Shown here: positions 997 to 10,997 of the stretch, piece by piece
How positions within the stretch are numbered: the stretch's first letter is position 1
Layout: each line of letters starts with the position of its first letter
Virus record (IMG/VR): IMGVR_UViG_3300035698_008450
Coordinates: 1-23,062 of that record
Source: a virus
Strand: one strand, 5' to 3'
DNA: 23,062 nucleotides
The notes under the pieces: model-generated
The model's input: the letters and a program-made list of their open reading frames with translations, nothing else
Databases searched by the model: none
Told to the model about the DNA's origin: nothing
Made by a program: the position numbers and the translations under genes

Positions 997-1260
997 ATGT
1001 CGAGACAGCTTGATAAGTGGTGGGTACAGCTTGGAATAACGGTAGGAACAATGTTGGTTGCTGTTGCTTTGGGCTGGTCTGCCATGAGCGGAGATGTTAA
1101 GGCAAATACATTAAAGAACGAAGAGCAAGATATTTGCCTGAAGGAAAATGTAAAGTCATTGCAGGACTATCGGGAATCACTGGTAAGAATGGATGAACGC
1201 TGGATTTCCGTTGAGAAAAACATGAAACGAATAATTACAAAACTGGACAAAGAAGACTAA
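997..1260 (+). CDS. Small membrane protein with coiled coil, holin/spanin candidate
   Basis: The 87-residue product has one N-terminal transmembrane segment (about residues 10-30), preceded by a short charged end. A long charged helical region (about 38-85) rich in Glu, Lys and Asp follows and is probably a coiled coil. This layout resembles inner-membrane spanin subunits (Rz-like) or small accessory holins. Its place directly before the terminase also suits a lysis gene, since lysis and terminase genes adjoin in many podoviruses. No sequence motif proves it, and no endolysin is visible in the window. GAGAGG lies 6 bases before the ATG. The stop overlaps the terminase start as TAATG, which suggests translational coupling. 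Confidence 0.6.
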   Translation: MSRQLDKWWVQLGITVGTMLVAVALGWSAMSGDVKANTLKNEEQDICLKENVKSLQDYRESLVRMDERWISVEKNMKRIITKLDKED

Positions 1261-3671
1261 TGCCTATATCCGATTCATTAAATGAAATGGATGGGAAAGA
1301 TTTGCTGGATGAAGAAGCGATTCAGCATATGCGGAAGATGTGCAAAGAGTCTCTTTTCTTTCTTGCAAGAGCCGTTCTTGGTTTTACGGATCTGGAGCCA
1401 AAGATTCATCTGCAGATTTGTCGTGACCTGGAGGATAATAACAAAAGCCGCAAGATTATTGTAATGCCGAGAACGTGGTTTAAGAGCACGATTGGCTCTA
1501 TTAGCTTTCCTATTTGGCGAGCTATCAGTGACCCGAATGTCAGAATTCTTATCTGTCAAAACTCTCACAGTAATGCTTGTAAGAAACTTGGTTCTATCAA
1601 GCAGATATTTGAGAAGAATAAGCTCTTCAGGTTGTTATTTCCTGAGATATTACCAACTCGTGATTGTAAGTGGTCCAATGATGTCCTCGAAGTAAAGAGA
1701 ACGGCAACGCATCCAGAGGGAACATTCGAAGCTGCTGGAACCGGCACGATGGTTGTTTCTCGCCATTATGATGTTATTATTGAAGATGACACTGTGGCTC
1801 CTGACAAGGATTCAATGGATGTGGAAATGCAGCAACCGACTGCTATGGAAATTGAAAAGGCCATTGGTTGGCACAACCTTACGGTTCCGCTGCTGGTTCA
1901 CCCATTGAAGGGTCAGATTATCATTATTGGAACACGATGGGCAGAAGAGGATCTCATCGGCCATGTTGTGGAGAACCATAAGAACTATCATATCATAACA
2001 CGTGCTGTTAGAGAGAAAGATGGAAAACCAGCATCTGTGGAAGAGGGCGGATTGCCAGCATGGCCGGAACGCTTTAACGATGAAGTTCTTGCTGAGGTAG
2101 AAAAATCCCTCGGGCCATATATGTTTTGTACTCCAGGTGGTGCTCCTGTTATTATGGCGGATTGGTCAGCAAGACCAATATCAATGATAGAGGCTGGTGA
2201 CAGAGTTGTTGGCTTTACATCTGGAACAACAGGAACAAGAAGTGTTACCAAGCCTACTCTTGTGACAGCAACAGGTTCTAAAGTAGCAACTGTTGTAGAA
2301 TTTCTGATGAGCTCTGGTAGAACAGTTCGTTGTACGCCAGACCATAAATGGCTTGTACAAAAGTCTCATACAACGGCAGGAAAATATCAATACGCTCCTG
2401 CTTGTCAGTGGTCATTGGATAAAAAACGTTTTTGGCCGCATGCGGACAAGACAAGAAGAACGATGCACTTTGTGTGTGATCCGTTTATTGATGCCGTAGA
2501 CGATGACAAAAAGGAGATGGCAGCTTACTTTACTGGACTCTATGATGGTGAAGGCAGTTGTACTCGACATTTGACTATTTCTCAGACTACGACTAGAAAT
2601 GGTCCTGTTTATGCAAGAATGAGAACATGCCTTGGTGCTCTTGGGTTTAAGTATAAGGAATATTTAACGCAAGGAAAAGAAAAACATCATATGCCAAGGG
2701 CTGATCTTGTTTTTGGTACGAAGTTTGAGGAACGAAGGCGGTTTTTGTTACAGATGGCTCCTGCCAAAGATGCTTCTATTATTAAGTCTTTGTATGGTGC
2801 AAGGTTTATTAAAGATGAGGATGAGGTAGTTGCTGTTAGATTACTTGGTGAAATGACAGTCTACTGGATAGAGACAGAAACTGGTAACTATATTTCACAA
2901 GGATATTGCAGTAAAAACAGCACATTGATGATGAACCATCCTACGTCAGCTACTAATATGGTGTTTCGTAGAAGCTGGATAGGCTATTTTGAAACACGAG
3001 ATATTACGAAGCTAATGTGCTGTACGACAATTGATCCTGCAGCTAGTGAACGAGAGACTACTGGTGATCCTGATTACACTGTTATTCTTACAACTGGAGT
3101 CGATCCGACAGAAGGGCAAATATTTGTCCTCGGATATGATAGAGAACGAATGAATCCTGGAGAGACCATTGACAGGTTATTCCAGCATTATAAGCTATAT
3201 CACCCATTGGATGTCGGGATGGAATCTGTTGCCTACCAGCGGACTCTCAAGTATTGGATTATGCAGCAGCAGAAAAAGCAGCGACTATTCTTTCCTGTTA
3301 CGGAAATTCCTAATGCTCGAACAGCAAAAGCTGATAGGATTCGCGGGTTGCAGCCTTTTTTCTCAAATAGGCTTGTATTTATTCGTAGTCATATGGATGT
3401 CCTTGAAAGAGAACTGTTGGCATTTCCTACTGCTAGAGGCCATGACGATGTTATTGATGCTCTTTCTATGCAGATTAAATTCTGGAACGATGCCCTTGGG
3501 CAGGTTCGAGAGAGGAAAGAAAGTCAGCTTGCAGCCAACTTGTTTTCTGGAAAGTGCATTGTTGACGAGTTGCTTGGCAGGTCTATTGCTATTAACCGTT
3601 ATCCATATGATATTGGTAACATGAAGGATCGGTTGTCGTCTAAGCAGAAACTTATTGCACACGTTGTATAG
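1260..3671 (+). CDS. terL: Terminase large subunit interrupted by an intein
   Basis: This is the DNA-packaging motor ATPase and nuclease. The N-terminal ATPase has a Walker A-like motif at P70-RTWFKS-T77, a Walker B at D171-VIIE-D176 with catalytic Glu175, and a coupling motif G224-T-R-W227. After the intein (290-553) comes an RNase H-like nuclease with Asp592, Glu655 and the G-H-D-D-x-x-D cluster at 727-733. Removing the intein gives about 539 residues, a normal TerL length. It also rejoins F289 to S554 in a segment resembling the F-S-x-x-x-x-N-x-P linker of terminases. The ATG overlaps the previous stop (TAATG). An in-frame ATG at 1287 lies just after a palindromic motif contained in codons 5-9. 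No small terminase subunit is seen in the window. Identification is secure. Confidence 0.95.
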   Translation: MPISDSLNEMDGKDLLDEEAIQHMRKMCKESLFFLARAVLGFTDLEPKIHLQICRDLEDNNKSRKIIVMPRTWFKSTIGSISFPIWRAISDPNVRILICQNSHSNACKKLGSIKQIFEKNKLFRLLFPEILPTRDCKWSNDVLEVKRTATHPEGTFEAAGTGTMVVSRHYDVIIEDDTVAPDKDSMDVEMQQPTAMEIEKAIGWHNLTVPLLVHPLKGQIIIIGTRWAEEDLIGHVVENHKNYHIITRAVREKDGKPASVEEGGLPAWPERFNDEVLAEVEKSLGPYMFCTPGGAPVIMADWSARPISMIEAGDRVVGFTSGTTGTRSVTKPTLVTATGSKVATVVEFLMSSGRTVRCTPDHKWLVQKSHTTAGKYQYAPACQWSLDKKRFWPHADKTRRTMHFVCDPFIDAVDDDKKEMAAYFTGLYDGEGSCTRHLTISQTTTRNGPVYARMRTCLGALGFKYKEYLTQGKEKHHMPRADLVFGTKFEERRRFLLQMAPAKDASIIKSLYGARFIKDEDEVVAVRLLGEMTVYWIETETGNYISQGYCSKNSTLMMNHPTSATNMVFRRSWIGYFETRDITKLMCCTTIDPAASERETTGDPDYTVILTTGVDPTEGQIFVLGYDRERMNPGETIDRLFQHYKLYHPLDVGMESVAYQRTLKYWIMQQQKKQRLFFPVTEIPNARTAKADRIRGLQPFFSNRLVFIRSHMDVLERELLAFPTARGHDDVIDALSMQIKFWNDALGQVRERKESQLAANLFSGKCIVDELLGRSIAINRYPYDIGNMKDRLSSKQKLIAHVV
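1274..1293 (+). promoter_or_regulatory. Palindromic motif copy 1 (early codons of terL)
   Basis: The sequence TTCATTAAATGAA is a perfect palindrome around its central base and is followed by ATGGATG. Outer CC (1270-1271) and GG (1289-1290) extend the dyad. The same 20-base directional motif recurs at 12455-12474 (+) and 21847-21866 (-), with one base difference each from this copy. Here it encodes part of the TerL N-terminus and precedes an in-frame ATG at 1287. The role is unknown. A protein-binding operator or a phage-specific promoter element is inferred. Confidence 0.6.
2127..2918 (+). other. Intein with single-motif LAGLIDADG homing endonuclease inside TerL
   Basis: This 264-residue intein covers residues 290-553 of the terminase ORF. 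Block A begins at Cys290 with C-T-P-G-G-A-P-V and an A-G-D-R-V strand. Block B is T359-P-D-H362. The C-terminal end follows the block F/G pattern N-Y-I-S-Q-G-Y-C-S-K-N, with terminal Asn553 and Ser554 as the +1 extein nucleophile. The penultimate residue is Lys552 where His is usual. A LAGLIDADG-like helix Y423-FTGLYDGE-G432 marks an endonuclease domain of roughly 110 residues, with Glu431 at the catalytic acidic position. Only one such motif is visible, so it would act as a dimer if active. The insertion lies in the conserved linker between the ATPase and nuclease lobes, a site class typical for inteins. Splicing is expected but not shown. Confidence 0.9.
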
Positions 3672-7705: not shown

Positions 7706-8269
7706 ATGGCAAGAAAAGTTTTGTTTAACGAGTGTGCTTTGACAGACCTAAAGGCCTCTGATACTGAGGGTCTTGGGGTGCTGTACGAGGACAAGTATGG
7801 ACGTGTTTATCGTTTTGTGAAGAATGTTGGATCAACGGCTCTTGTGGCTGCTGGTTGTTGCGTGAAGAAACTCGGGCAGTCCTCAGCTCTTGATACCACA
7901 AAGTACGTTTTGTCGTCTGATGCTGCAACCGGCCCGTCTACTTGCTTGGTAACAATGCCGGCTGGTGTTCCTGTTACCGCTATTGCAGCGAGTGGTGCTG
8001 CTACTGGCGATCATGGTTGGATACAGGTAAAAGGGCCTGCTAAGGTTTCGATGCTTCCACTATCAACGGCGGTTAATCAGGAAGCTGGCTGTTGTGCAAT
8101 TTCTACTACGACAGCCGGTGGAAACTGGGGAGCAGCTGTTACTTCTCTTATCAGCAGTACAGCTGGTGGCATTGTAAACCTTCGTTGCGTTCAGCTTTCA
8201 GAACCTTTGACCGAGGTAACGCCAGCAACTGCCGCTAGTGCTTACGTTCAGGTTCGCTGCCTGGACTAA
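7706..8269 (+). CDS. Capsid decoration or minor head protein candidate
   Basis: The 187-residue, small-residue-rich (Ala, Thr, Gly, Val), beta-type protein has no transmembrane segment or signal peptide. Its place immediately after the coat gene, behind TAGGAGATAACAAGT and an ATG, and its all-beta look suit a decoration or head-stabilising protein. It carries nine Cys residues, including two C-C pairs, unusual for a decoration protein. No family was recognised. The gene ends just before the strong ribosome site of the sugar cassette, so it could also be a target for glycosylation. That link is speculative. Confidence 0.55.
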   Translation: MARKVLFNECALTDLKASDTEGLGVLYEDKYGRVYRFVKNVGSTALVAAGCCVKKLGQSSALDTTKYVLSSDAATGPSTCLVTMPAGVPVTAIAASGAATGDHGWIQVKGPAKVSMLPLSTAVNQEAGCCAISTTTAGGNWGAAVTSLISSTAGGIVNLRCVQLSEPLTEVTPATAASAYVQVRCLD

Positions 8270-8279
8270 AGGAGGTGAT
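8269..8279 (+). promoter_or_regulatory. Full-length Shine-Dalgarno site deciding a TTG start
   Basis: AAGGAGGTGAT matches the anti-Shine-Dalgarno end of 16S rRNA over 11 bases. It lies 7 bases (counted from GGAGG) before a TTG at 8283, while no ATG or GTG is correctly placed. It overlaps the stop of the upstream gene and sets the start of the first glycosyltransferase. Confidence 0.85.
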
Positions 8280-8282
8280 TTC

Positions 8283-8996
8283 TTGTCTGAGAACAAAAAC
8301 CTGAAGATTGCAATTTGTTCACATGTTTTCAGAGACATTGATTTCTCTGTTTACTTTAACCATATGTGGTGCATTAGTTCATGGGTTAAAAAGTACGATG
8401 TAGTTTTCTGCGGAAAACGTGGTCTTGATGCTGCTACAGCACGAAACCAACTTGTCGAAAGAGCCGTAGAACATAATTGCACGCATATGTTTTTCATGGA
8501 TGGCGATCATTTGTTTCCGCCGGAAACTTTGCCGTTATTACTGGAGTCCAAGGATGAGGCAATGGTATCTGGTCTGGTGTGTAAAAGAGGGGAAGGTTAT
8601 CAACAGGTTGGTTTCCAGAAGTCCGAAAATGGCTCGTACCAGTCTGTTGACCTTCCCCTTGATGGTAAGGTGTACCAAGTAAGAGTATGTGCATTTGGCT
8701 GTACGCTTATTAACATGAAGTATCTTCTTAAGCTAGAGCCTCCGTACTTTCGCGATAACTGCATTAAGACTTCCAATGGAGACCTTTACAACTTTCGCAG
8801 TGACGTGAATCTTTGTGAAGCCTTTCATGAGATCAAGGAACGCTGTTGGATAGATACTAGAATATTGATTGGACATCACGGATATGACTCTGTTATTTAT
8901 CCACAGCAGGCCAAAGACAGAGTTGCCTGTGATGGCCTCTTGAAAAGTTCTCTTGTGCTGAAGAAGGAAGAAGAAGGGTTTTATTATGAACCATGA
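8283..8996 (+). CDS. GT-A-type glycosyltransferase
   Basis: The 237-residue protein starts at TTG 8283. An upstream in-frame ATG at 8238 lies inside the previous gene and lacks a ribosome site. It opens with a short beta strand (L-K-I-A-I-C-S-H), continues with A-A-T-A-R-N-Q-L-V-E-R-A, and then has F-F-M-D73-G-D75-H. The latter is the DxD motif that binds the metal and nucleotide sugar in GT-A glycosyltransferases. The next segment, L-F-P-P-E-T-L-P-L-L-L, is also typical. It would transfer a sugar to an unknown acceptor in the cytoplasm. It overlaps the next gene by 11 bases and heads a three-gene sugar cassette inside the structural operon. Modification of a virion protein or of host surface glycans is likely. 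Fold confident, substrate unknown. Confidence 0.75.
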   Translation: MSENKNLKIAICSHVFRDIDFSVYFNHMWCISSWVKKYDVVFCGKRGLDAATARNQLVERAVEHNCTHMFFMDGDHLFPPETLPLLLESKDEAMVSGLVCKRGEGYQQVGFQKSENGSYQSVDLPLDGKVYQVRVCAFGCTLINMKYLLKLEPPYFRDNCIKTSNGDLYNFRSDVNLCEAFHEIKERCWIDTRILIGHHGYDSVIYPQQAKDRVACDGLLKSSLVLKKEEEGFYYEP

Positions 8997-9810
8997 TATC
9001 GCTTTCTTTACAGTAAAACAGTGGGCGAGCAGTAAAATTCGTGGCAGTCAAATTGCATACCGATTGGATGCTCTTTGTGATGTGCCTGTTAATCAGGATA
9101 GAATGCCAAAGCACATTGTTTGCGTGAAGTGCTTGCCGATGGAGATTGACCAGTTCATTGACGCTGGCGTGCAGGTGTGGGTTGATCCTATCGACAACGA
9201 TGGGGCTCTGAAAGAGATTGCTAAGAGACCAGGTATAAAAGTTCTTGCAATTGGCGATTCTGCAGAACATTATTTACATGCAAGGTTGGTGAATGATGTT
9301 GTGAAGATACCTGAACATCATTGTAACTTTGATAGAGAACAGACAAGGCGGCGGCAGAATGAATGTGTTGCTGGGTATGTCGGTTATGAGGAGTGTTTTG
9401 ATCTATCATTGAATGATGTAAAAGAAGCTCTTTCAAAGGTTGGTATCAGCTTCAAGTGGCTCTTGCTAAATGCTAACACAACTCGTGAAGAAGTGGTTGG
9501 CTTTTACAAGACCATTGATATGCAGGTGACGTTTAGGCTTCCAAAGATTGTCACTGGTATGCCGCCTGAGATGAAGAATCCTTTGAAGGTTGTGAATGCT
9601 GCCAGCTTCGGAATAGCAACTGTTGGTTATCCTGAAGTCAGTTACGAGGAATTTCCTCCGCTTTACAGCGTTACCAATATCGAAGACCTCGTTATACAGT
9701 GTAAGCGTCTCAAGAATCAGCAGCCGTTTTATACAACGAACCTGTTGGAACGAGCTGAGGCATATCATATTGATAACATTGTTGCTCGATACAAGGAGGT
9801 GCTGGTATGA
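8986..9810 (+). CDS. GT-B-like (glycosyltransferase family 4-type) protein
   Basis: The 274-residue protein has a C-terminal region (about 185-215) with the pattern R-L-P-K then M-K197-N-P-L-K-V-V-N204-A-A-S-F-G209. This corresponds to the donor-binding K-P-x-K-x-x-E-A-x-A-x-G segment of GT-B glycosyltransferases, but the usual Glu is Asn204. The N-terminal half has alternating strands and helices consistent with a Rossmann-like lobe (for example K-V-L-A-I-G-D-S, about 85-92). It is shorter than full GT4 enzymes (about 350-400), so it may be a reduced or divergent form. It starts inside the previous gene and ends with an ATGA overlap with the aminotransferase, so the three are probably translated together. 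Acceptor unknown. Confidence 0.6.
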   Translation: MNHDIAFFTVKQWASSKIRGSQIAYRLDALCDVPVNQDRMPKHIVCVKCLPMEIDQFIDAGVQVWVDPIDNDGALKEIAKRPGIKVLAIGDSAEHYLHARLVNDVVKIPEHHCNFDREQTRRRQNECVAGYVGYEECFDLSLNDVKEALSKVGISFKWLLLNANTTREEVVGFYKTIDMQVTFRLPKIVTGMPPEMKNPLKVVNAASFGIATVGYPEVSYEEFPPLYSVTNIEDLVIQCKRLKNQQPFYTTNLLERAEAYHIDNIVARYKEVLV

Positions 9811-10997
9811 TATCTCTTTTCAAAGTTGCGATGAATAGCAATACACCAAAGGCTGTTGGCGATGTGTTGATGTCTGGTTATATTGGTGAGGGGGAGAAGG
9901 TAGAAGAGTTCACATCGAGGTGTAAAAAGCTCATCGGGTGCAAGCATGCAGTAGCGACAAACAGTGGAACGAGTGCCCTGCAGCTTGCACTTTTCTGTGC
10001 CGGTGTCGGTCATGGAGATGTTGTTATCTCTACGCCTGTCACATGTTTGGCGACAAACACTGCTATCAGGGCGGTTGGTGCTGATATTCTTTGGGCTGAT
10101 GTCGATCCGCGTACGGGTAGTATTGACCCAGAGTCTGTAAAAGATTTGCTAGAGCGAAGTCCTGATACTGTTGGGGCAATCATGTGTGTGCATTGGGGTG
10201 GAATGCCTTGTAACATGAAGAGGCTTCTTGAAATTGCTGATGACTACGGAGTAACGCTTATAGAAGATGCGGCTCAGGCTTGGTTGTCTCGATATGATGA
10301 AAAGAACATCGGCTCTTTTGGTCACTTGACCTGTTTTTCTTTCCAGGCTATTAAACACCTAACAACTGGCGACGGCGGGCTAGTTACAATGAGTTCAAAC
10401 AAACTCTACGAAACTGCCCGCTTAGCCAAGTGGTTTGGGCTTGATAGAAAGTTGTCAACTAGCATGCGATGTGACCAAGACCCACCGATGGCAGGGTTTA
10501 AGTATCAGATGAATGATATTGCGGCAGCCATTGGCTTGTGTAACATAGATGAGTCTGTTGGTAGAGTTGAGCTGCATCAGGCTCACGCTCGTCGTTACGA
10601 TCAGGAGTTTGCTCATCTTCAACATGTAGCTATTCCCTTTTATTCATCTGTGAAGGAAAGTTCCTACTGGCTTTATACGATTCTCGTAGAGAATCAAGAA
10701 GCCTTTATTGCTTTCATGAAAGATCGAGGAGTTGAATGCTCTAAAGTACATGCAAGGAATGACACCAAGACTGTTTTTAAGCAATACAAGGCACCACTGC
10801 CGGGAGTTGCTTCCTTTGATGAGTATCAAGTAAACATTCCCGTTGGCTGGTGGTTGTCTGGCGATGAAATTTCACACATTATAAACTGTATAAGGAGCTT
10901 TGACGATGGCTACAGCAACTGTAGCAAAGAACAAGACGCGTGCGTTTCGCAGAGCAATCAGCATCTTGCAGCAGCCTGCTGGCGAGAGCAACGCTAG
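9807..10997 (+). CDS. DegT/DnrJ/EryC1/StrS-family sugar aminotransferase
   Basis: The 396-residue protein has the main family landmarks. These are G-Y-I-G-E-G near residue 24, N52-S-G-T-S-A for the PLP phosphate, E-D154-A-A-Q157 for the pyridine ring, and F-S-F-Q-A-I-K183-H with the Schiff-base lysine followed by G-D-G-G. Family members transfer an amino group to a keto-sugar nucleotide and so make amino sugars for glycans. With two glycosyltransferases upstream, it probably supplies or elaborates the sugar they attach. The natural family C-terminus seems to be I-I-N-C-I-R-S-F (about 366). The last 30 or so residues run on over the start of the next gene in another frame and look accidental. 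The start is ATGA-coupled. Confidence 0.9.
   Translation: MISLFKVAMNSNTPKAVGDVLMSGYIGEGEKVEEFTSRCKKLIGCKHAVATNSGTSALQLALFCAGVGHGDVVISTPVTCLATNTAIRAVGADILWADVDPRTGSIDPESVKDLLERSPDTVGAIMCVHWGGMPCNMKRLLEIADDYGVTLIEDAAQAWLSRYDEKNIGSFGHLTCFSFQAIKHLTTGDGGLVTMSSNKLYETARLAKWFGLDRKLSTSMRCDQDPPMAGFKYQMNDIAAAIGLCNIDESVGRVELHQAHARRYDQEFAHLQHVAIPFYSSVKESSYWLYTILVENQEAFIAFMKDRGVECSKVHARNDTKTVFKQYKAPLPGVASFDEYQVNIPVGWWLSGDEISHIINCIRSFDDGYSNCSKEQDACVSQSNQHLAAACWREQR

Follow-up and report, generated by a model that had tools for sequence, protein, structure and literature searches.

A probable class 1 intein without the block F and block G histidines in a phage terminase gene belongs to a widespread phage intein family

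The terL gene and its in-frame insert

The window, the sequence analysed here, is a virus record 23,062 bases long. Its terL gene, encoding the precursor of the terminase large subunit (TerL), occupies positions 1260-3671 on the plus strand, like all the parts of the gene given below, and is a single open frame of 803 aa with no internal stop. The frame consists of an N-extein with the ATPase domain (1260-2126, ending in SLGPYMF and aligned to intein-free TerLs), an in-frame intein of 264 aa (2127-2918), and a C-extein from Ser+1 onward (2919-3671, starting with STLMMNHP), which carries the RNase H-like nuclease domain and was placed by TIGR01630 and the junction alignment. The exteins, residues 1-289 and 554-803, are those of a TerL according to PHROGs (phrog_38, E 6e-77) and NCBIfam (NF033889, E 3e-19), with a further match to TIGR01630 (E 2e-8) covering residues 605-739.

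The intein spans residues 290-553, from the Cys1 codon starting at 2127 to the Asn264 codon ending at 2918, in exact agreement with the original prediction, and its removal leaves a TerL with a computed length of 539 aa, as had also been anticipated. Once the exteins are rejoined, the linker GPYMF-STLMMNHP aligns without gaps with that of the intein-free TerL of Klebsiella phage JD001 (YMFSGQMQQRP), and also with those of further TerLs once their own inteins are taken out, so the rejoined product does have a normal terminase linker. The insert lies in the linker between the ATPase and the nuclease of a phage TerL. Residue 553 is the only Asn followed by Cys, Ser or Thr downstream of Cys1, and His-Asn-[Cys/Ser/Thr] does not occur in the whole terL frame; therefore, no canonical alternative junction is available. 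Together with the restored extein alignment, the single Asn-[Cys/Ser/Thr] rules out a splice junction elsewhere.

Intein blocks and catalytic residues

Block A (CTPGGAPVIMADW, 2127-2165) starts with the nucleophile Cys1 (2127-2129), found in 47 of the 47 inteins of the family core described below. Block B (GRTVRCTPDHKWL, 2316-2354), with the core CTPDHKW, carries Thr70 (B:7), His73 (B:10) and Trp at B:12, and all three residues are present in 47 of 47 core relatives, a conservation that is partly by construction, since the scan pattern itself included T..H.W. Block F (VYWIETETGNYISQ, 2859-2900) has Trp at F:4 and, in the segment VYWIETETGNYIS, Gly instead of the block F His. Block G (2904-2918) reads YCSKN before Ser+1, with Ser at G:5, Lys at G:6 and Asn at G:7. 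Both replacements noticed originally, that of the penultimate His by Lys in an S-K-N end followed by Ser and that of the block F His by Gly, are therefore confirmed, and no His is present in the last 24 residues of the window intein.

The insert has the features that define a class 1 intein: a Cys, Ser or Thr at position 1, Thr B:7 with His B:10, a C-terminal Asn followed by Cys, Ser or Thr (Asn264-Ser+1), a Hint fold in the predicted model, and seamless exteins. Its obligatory residues Cys1, Thr B:7, His B:10, Asn G:7 and Ser+1 are all intact. What it lacks are the usual but non-obligatory helpers, with Trp instead of Asp at F:4, Gly instead of His at F:13 and Lys instead of His at G:6; these were not counted as defining class 1 because they are reported to be dispensable in some inteins (PMC4031507). 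The window intein also belongs to the family that we define here as GNY..SKN, characterized by a TGNY or TGNF block F without His and an S-K-N or S-S-N block G.

Predicted fold and endonuclease domain

The NCBIfam rSAM intein model NF038136 matches intein residues 1-264 (E 5e-11); matches to the Pfam splicing and intein models stay below their cut-offs. An AlphaFold2 model built on 38 sequences, comprising the window and viral-contig rows only, has a mean pLDDT of 89 and a pTM of 0.87, and resembles solved Hint and intein structures such as PI-SceI (E 5e-9), PhoVMA (E 6e-9) and gp41-1 (target-normalised TM 0.80-0.82). Along with the intact class 1 residues and the restored extein alignment, these results bear out that the insert is an intein.

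A LAGLIDADG endonuclease domain is predicted at about 2508-2829 from the motif FTGLYDGEG, a weak PF14528 match (intein residues 130-190, E 0.11) and the corresponding region of the model, which forms one helix-strand-strand-helix-strand-strand-helices unit; PF14528 is present in 13 of 42 relatives. Only a single LAGLIDADG motif is found in the window intein, versus the two motifs that are usual in intein endonucleases, and the enzyme, if active, would probably need to act as a dimer.

A family of phage inteins without the usual histidines

Viral contigs scanned with the window intein alone gave no match, and with the whole TerL they gave distant TerLs only; a scan of genome contigs returned one distant match. 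A profile (A1) made of the window intein and its relatives from sequenced phages was scanned against 2.9 million viral contigs (IMG/VR), using block B and the endonuclease motif as scan patterns; since blocks F and G were not in the seed, there is no direct bias on their tallies. The resulting 61 loci, plus phage records, yielded 53 distinct full inteins, whose penultimate residue is Lys in 35, Ser in 11, His in five, and Arg and Ala in one each. The alignment proposed to look for a Lys subfamily has thus shown that Lys prevails. The 47-member core used for the residue counts leaves out three long or double-insert frames (L021, L026, L075) and three His-ending outliers (L009, L010, L073), and three loci with an unclear N-terminal end or junction (L024, L036, L072) stand outside all counts.

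Within the core, G:6 is Lys in 34 inteins, Ser in 10, and Arg, Ala or His in one each, meaning that 46 of 47 have no block G His. Gly (43), Asn (2) or Glu (2) stands where block F would have its His, and no member has a His there. None has Asp at F:4 either, this position being Ser (24), Ala (9), Asn (5), Gly (4), Trp (2), Thr (2) or Cys (1), and G:5 is Ser in 43, Thr in two and Ala in two. The last 24 residues are His-free in 43 of the 47. The family does without three usual class 1 helpers at once: Asp at F:4, His at F:13 and His at G:6.

In a tree of the splicing domains, a 50-row family separates from the His-ending relatives and the class 3 inteins with a branch support of 100/98; inside it Lys prevails and Ser arises several times, with many weak inner branches. 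The pattern T-G-N-Y-x-x-x-G-x-x-S-(K/S)-N reads as the signature of a widespread phage intein family, and not as a lesion in this phage. As the non-His state is common to the family, Lys is its normal G:6 residue and a heritable trait. The original prediction was right in describing a TerL intein without either His, but not in seeing it as an odd exception, since the non-His state prevails across the 50-row clade in essential genes. The window intein is real but unexceptional, one of a large and widespread phage family.

Five relatives of 154-171 aa (L049, L050, L055, L062, L063) are too short for an endonuclease; four of them end in S-K-N, three in TerL (L050, L055, L062) and one in a portal-type protein (L063), and the fifth ends in S-S-N. 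That endonuclease-free mini-inteins retain SKN argues for selection on splicing alone.

Among the relatives scanned, the host proteins are mostly TerLs, the rest being portal proteins or SNF2-type helicases. The window intein has no close relative; the nearest, with 41% identity over the whole intein, is a TerL intein of 235 aa (L014, IMG/VR 3300002223_000012), which sits in the same linker region and shares Cys1 and GNYI..GY.SKN; it differs in being inserted one codon downstream, before Cys+1, and in having Ser at F:4 instead of Trp. The portal inteins of C-cluster mycobacteriophages (ScoobyDoobyDoo gp84, JayJay gp96) are about 29-33% identical and also have Cys1, Trp B:12 and TGNY...SKN, whereas their host protein, their Ser at F:4 and their +1 Cys set them apart. 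The other family member with Trp F:4 (L033) also has CSKN followed by Ser, but its TerL site is quite different, lying upstream of the linker by about 100 columns of the alignment. In the Manatee Spring phage (L006, MW202554), the TerL with an intein of this type is annotated as two CDSs, one for the ATPase half and one for the nuclease half, separated by a small ORF.

Proposed splicing mechanism

We give a probability of about 0.88 to the insert being a class 1 TerL intein of the GNY..SKN phage family, with a single-motif endonuclease and a normal four-step splicing that is independent of the missing His. The boundaries, the conservation in the family and the predicted fold are results of the sequence analysis, whereas the splicing itself, the chemistry of its third step and its rate are inferred. 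In the first step, Thr B:7 and His B:10 would assist an N-S acyl shift at Cys1, and transesterification onto Ser+1 would follow. Asn264 would then cyclise with no reliance on a His at F:13 or G:6, and an O-N shift would finally produce the 539-aa TerL. The Lys or Ser at G:6, the Asn-Tyr and Gly of block F, and the Ser at G:5 may replace the role of His or make it needless; by conservation, the candidate substitutes in the window intein are Asn254-Tyr255, Gly259, Ser262 and the Lys/Ser position 263.

Relation to class 3 inteins

Class 3 inteins have Trp-Cys-Thr at B:12, F:4 and G:5 and lack a nucleophile as their first residue, whereas the window intein has Trp-Trp-Ser and Cys1. Membership in class 3 was rejected on two counts, the absence of Cys F:4 and the presence of Cys1. 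Compared with class 3 inteins such as those of Msm DnaB-1 and phage RecB, the window intein shares Trp B:12, a hydroxyl residue at G:5 and the absence of Asp F:4, and differs in that those inteins use Cys F:4 and have no Cys1, while it has Cys1, Trp F:4 and no penultimate His.

The family might combine a class-3-like active site with a Cys1 start, and its members could be relatives or forerunners of class 3 that are still of the Cys1 type, a tentative reading that we consider rather unlikely. It draws on Trp B:12, Ser G:5 and the lack of Asp F:4 in the family, on core combinations such as W-S-S-K (18 inteins) and W-A-S-S (5), on the Trp-Cys-Thr that coexists with Cys1 in the intein of virus Rctr197k, and on true class 3 RecB inteins of the same mycobacteriophage cluster (L090, L093), which also carry the Trp, together with a Thr at G:5. 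However, Trp B:12 was in the scan pattern and is invariant partly by construction, the tree puts class 3 outside the family, on very long branches alongside the His-ending outgroups, and the window intein, with Trp at F:4, is without the class 3 nucleophile. Splicing of class 3 inteins is reported to depend more on Trp B:12, which is important for it, than on Thr G:5 (PMC5222942). Somewhat more doubtful still is that the family represents an undescribed Cys1 sub-class, cyclising Asn without the block F and G His or Asp F:4 on a framework of Trp B:12 and Ser G:5, and maybe the ancestral stock of class 3.

The Rctr197k intein itself (L011, KX853510) mixes marks of class 1 and class 3, namely Cys1, the Trp-Cys-Thr triplet and a penultimate Lys, and resides in a helicase-like host protein annotated as radical SAM-like.

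Penultimate residue and splicing rate

In mycobacteriophage inteins of class 1, conservation of the penultimate His is poor, and Gly, Lys and Ser occur there instead (PMC5050341). Roughly 5% of functional inteins carry a different residue at G:6, neither the F:13 nor the G:6 His is needed by all inteins, and F:4 is most frequently Asp, then Cys and then Trp (PMC4031507). Lys at G:6, Trp at F:4 and a dispensable block F His are, accordingly, variants already described; the GNY..SKN family as such was not found in the open-licence papers searched, which is weak evidence. Npu DnaE, also of class 1, is one of the fastest inteins. It ends in ASN, with a penultimate Ser, and is in this respect like the window intein, but it retains the block F Asp and His that the window family lacks.

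The original prediction further held that altered kinetics would make packaging conditional on slow splicing. A loss of His that slows splicing, and thereby delays TerL activity and packaging or makes them conditional, is improbable in our view. Even though the loss of the G:6 His slows Asn cyclisation in some inteins and its restoration improves some natural variants (PMC4031507), the non-His state prevails in the whole family, in many phages and in several host proteins, and the RDF intein, with a penultimate Gly, splices completely, whereas its Gly-to-His mutant needs more than 5 hours for about half splicing (PMC5050341). Moreover, the only terminase intein with a visible precursor, Pham3880-g (PMC5050341), has a homologue ending in HN. 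This homologue, by our own assignment, is Drazdys gp250 (the published intein being ScottMcG gp245, PMC5050341); it resembles the window intein weakly (25%) and in its terminase-like host protein, and differs by a THN end before Ser with the canonical penultimate His, by another insertion site and by its place outside the family in the tree.

The published cases show no simple link between a missing His and slow splicing, and the claim of altered kinetics is left unsupported. The sequence of the window intein carries no information on splicing rate, and, the missing His being a heritable family trait, the idea of conditional packaging should not rest on it. A family that lacks three helper residues and persists in essential phage genes offers instead a natural set for probing what drives Asn cyclisation.

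Alternatives to splicing

An element that cleaves itself without splicing would split TerL into an ATPase part and a nuclease part. The separate CDSs of MW202554 agree with this idea, as split TerLs may exist, but all the splicing nucleophiles including Ser+1 are present in the window, the extein junction is intact, and the related inteins inserted at this site retain Cys or Ser at +1, making self-cleavage very improbable. A degenerate intein was also considered and rejected. Finally, the chance that the junction is elsewhere or that the insert is a terminase domain is negligible, because, sub-cut-off as the Pfam intein matches are by themselves, the single Asn-[Cys/Ser/Thr] downstream of Cys1, the alignment with intein-free TerLs regained on removal of the insert, NF038136 and the predicted fold all refute it.

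Insertion sites and neighbouring genes

The P-Y-x-F-x-x-Q motif of the TerL linker is interrupted by related inteins at any of three adjacent codons, which lie one, two or three residues past Tyr. This stagger is seen in the window (2126/2127), L014, L017, L020, L025, L030, L044 and others, and the total linker length remains constant. It reflects either repeated invasion or single-codon sliding of the insertion.

Elsewhere in the window, positions 8238-10997 hold a glycosyltransferase-like gene, an unassigned gene and a DegT/DnrJ/EryC1 aminotransferase (E 1e-79), with the major head protein on one side and later virion genes on the other, which suggests that a sugar modification is encoded inside the structural module.
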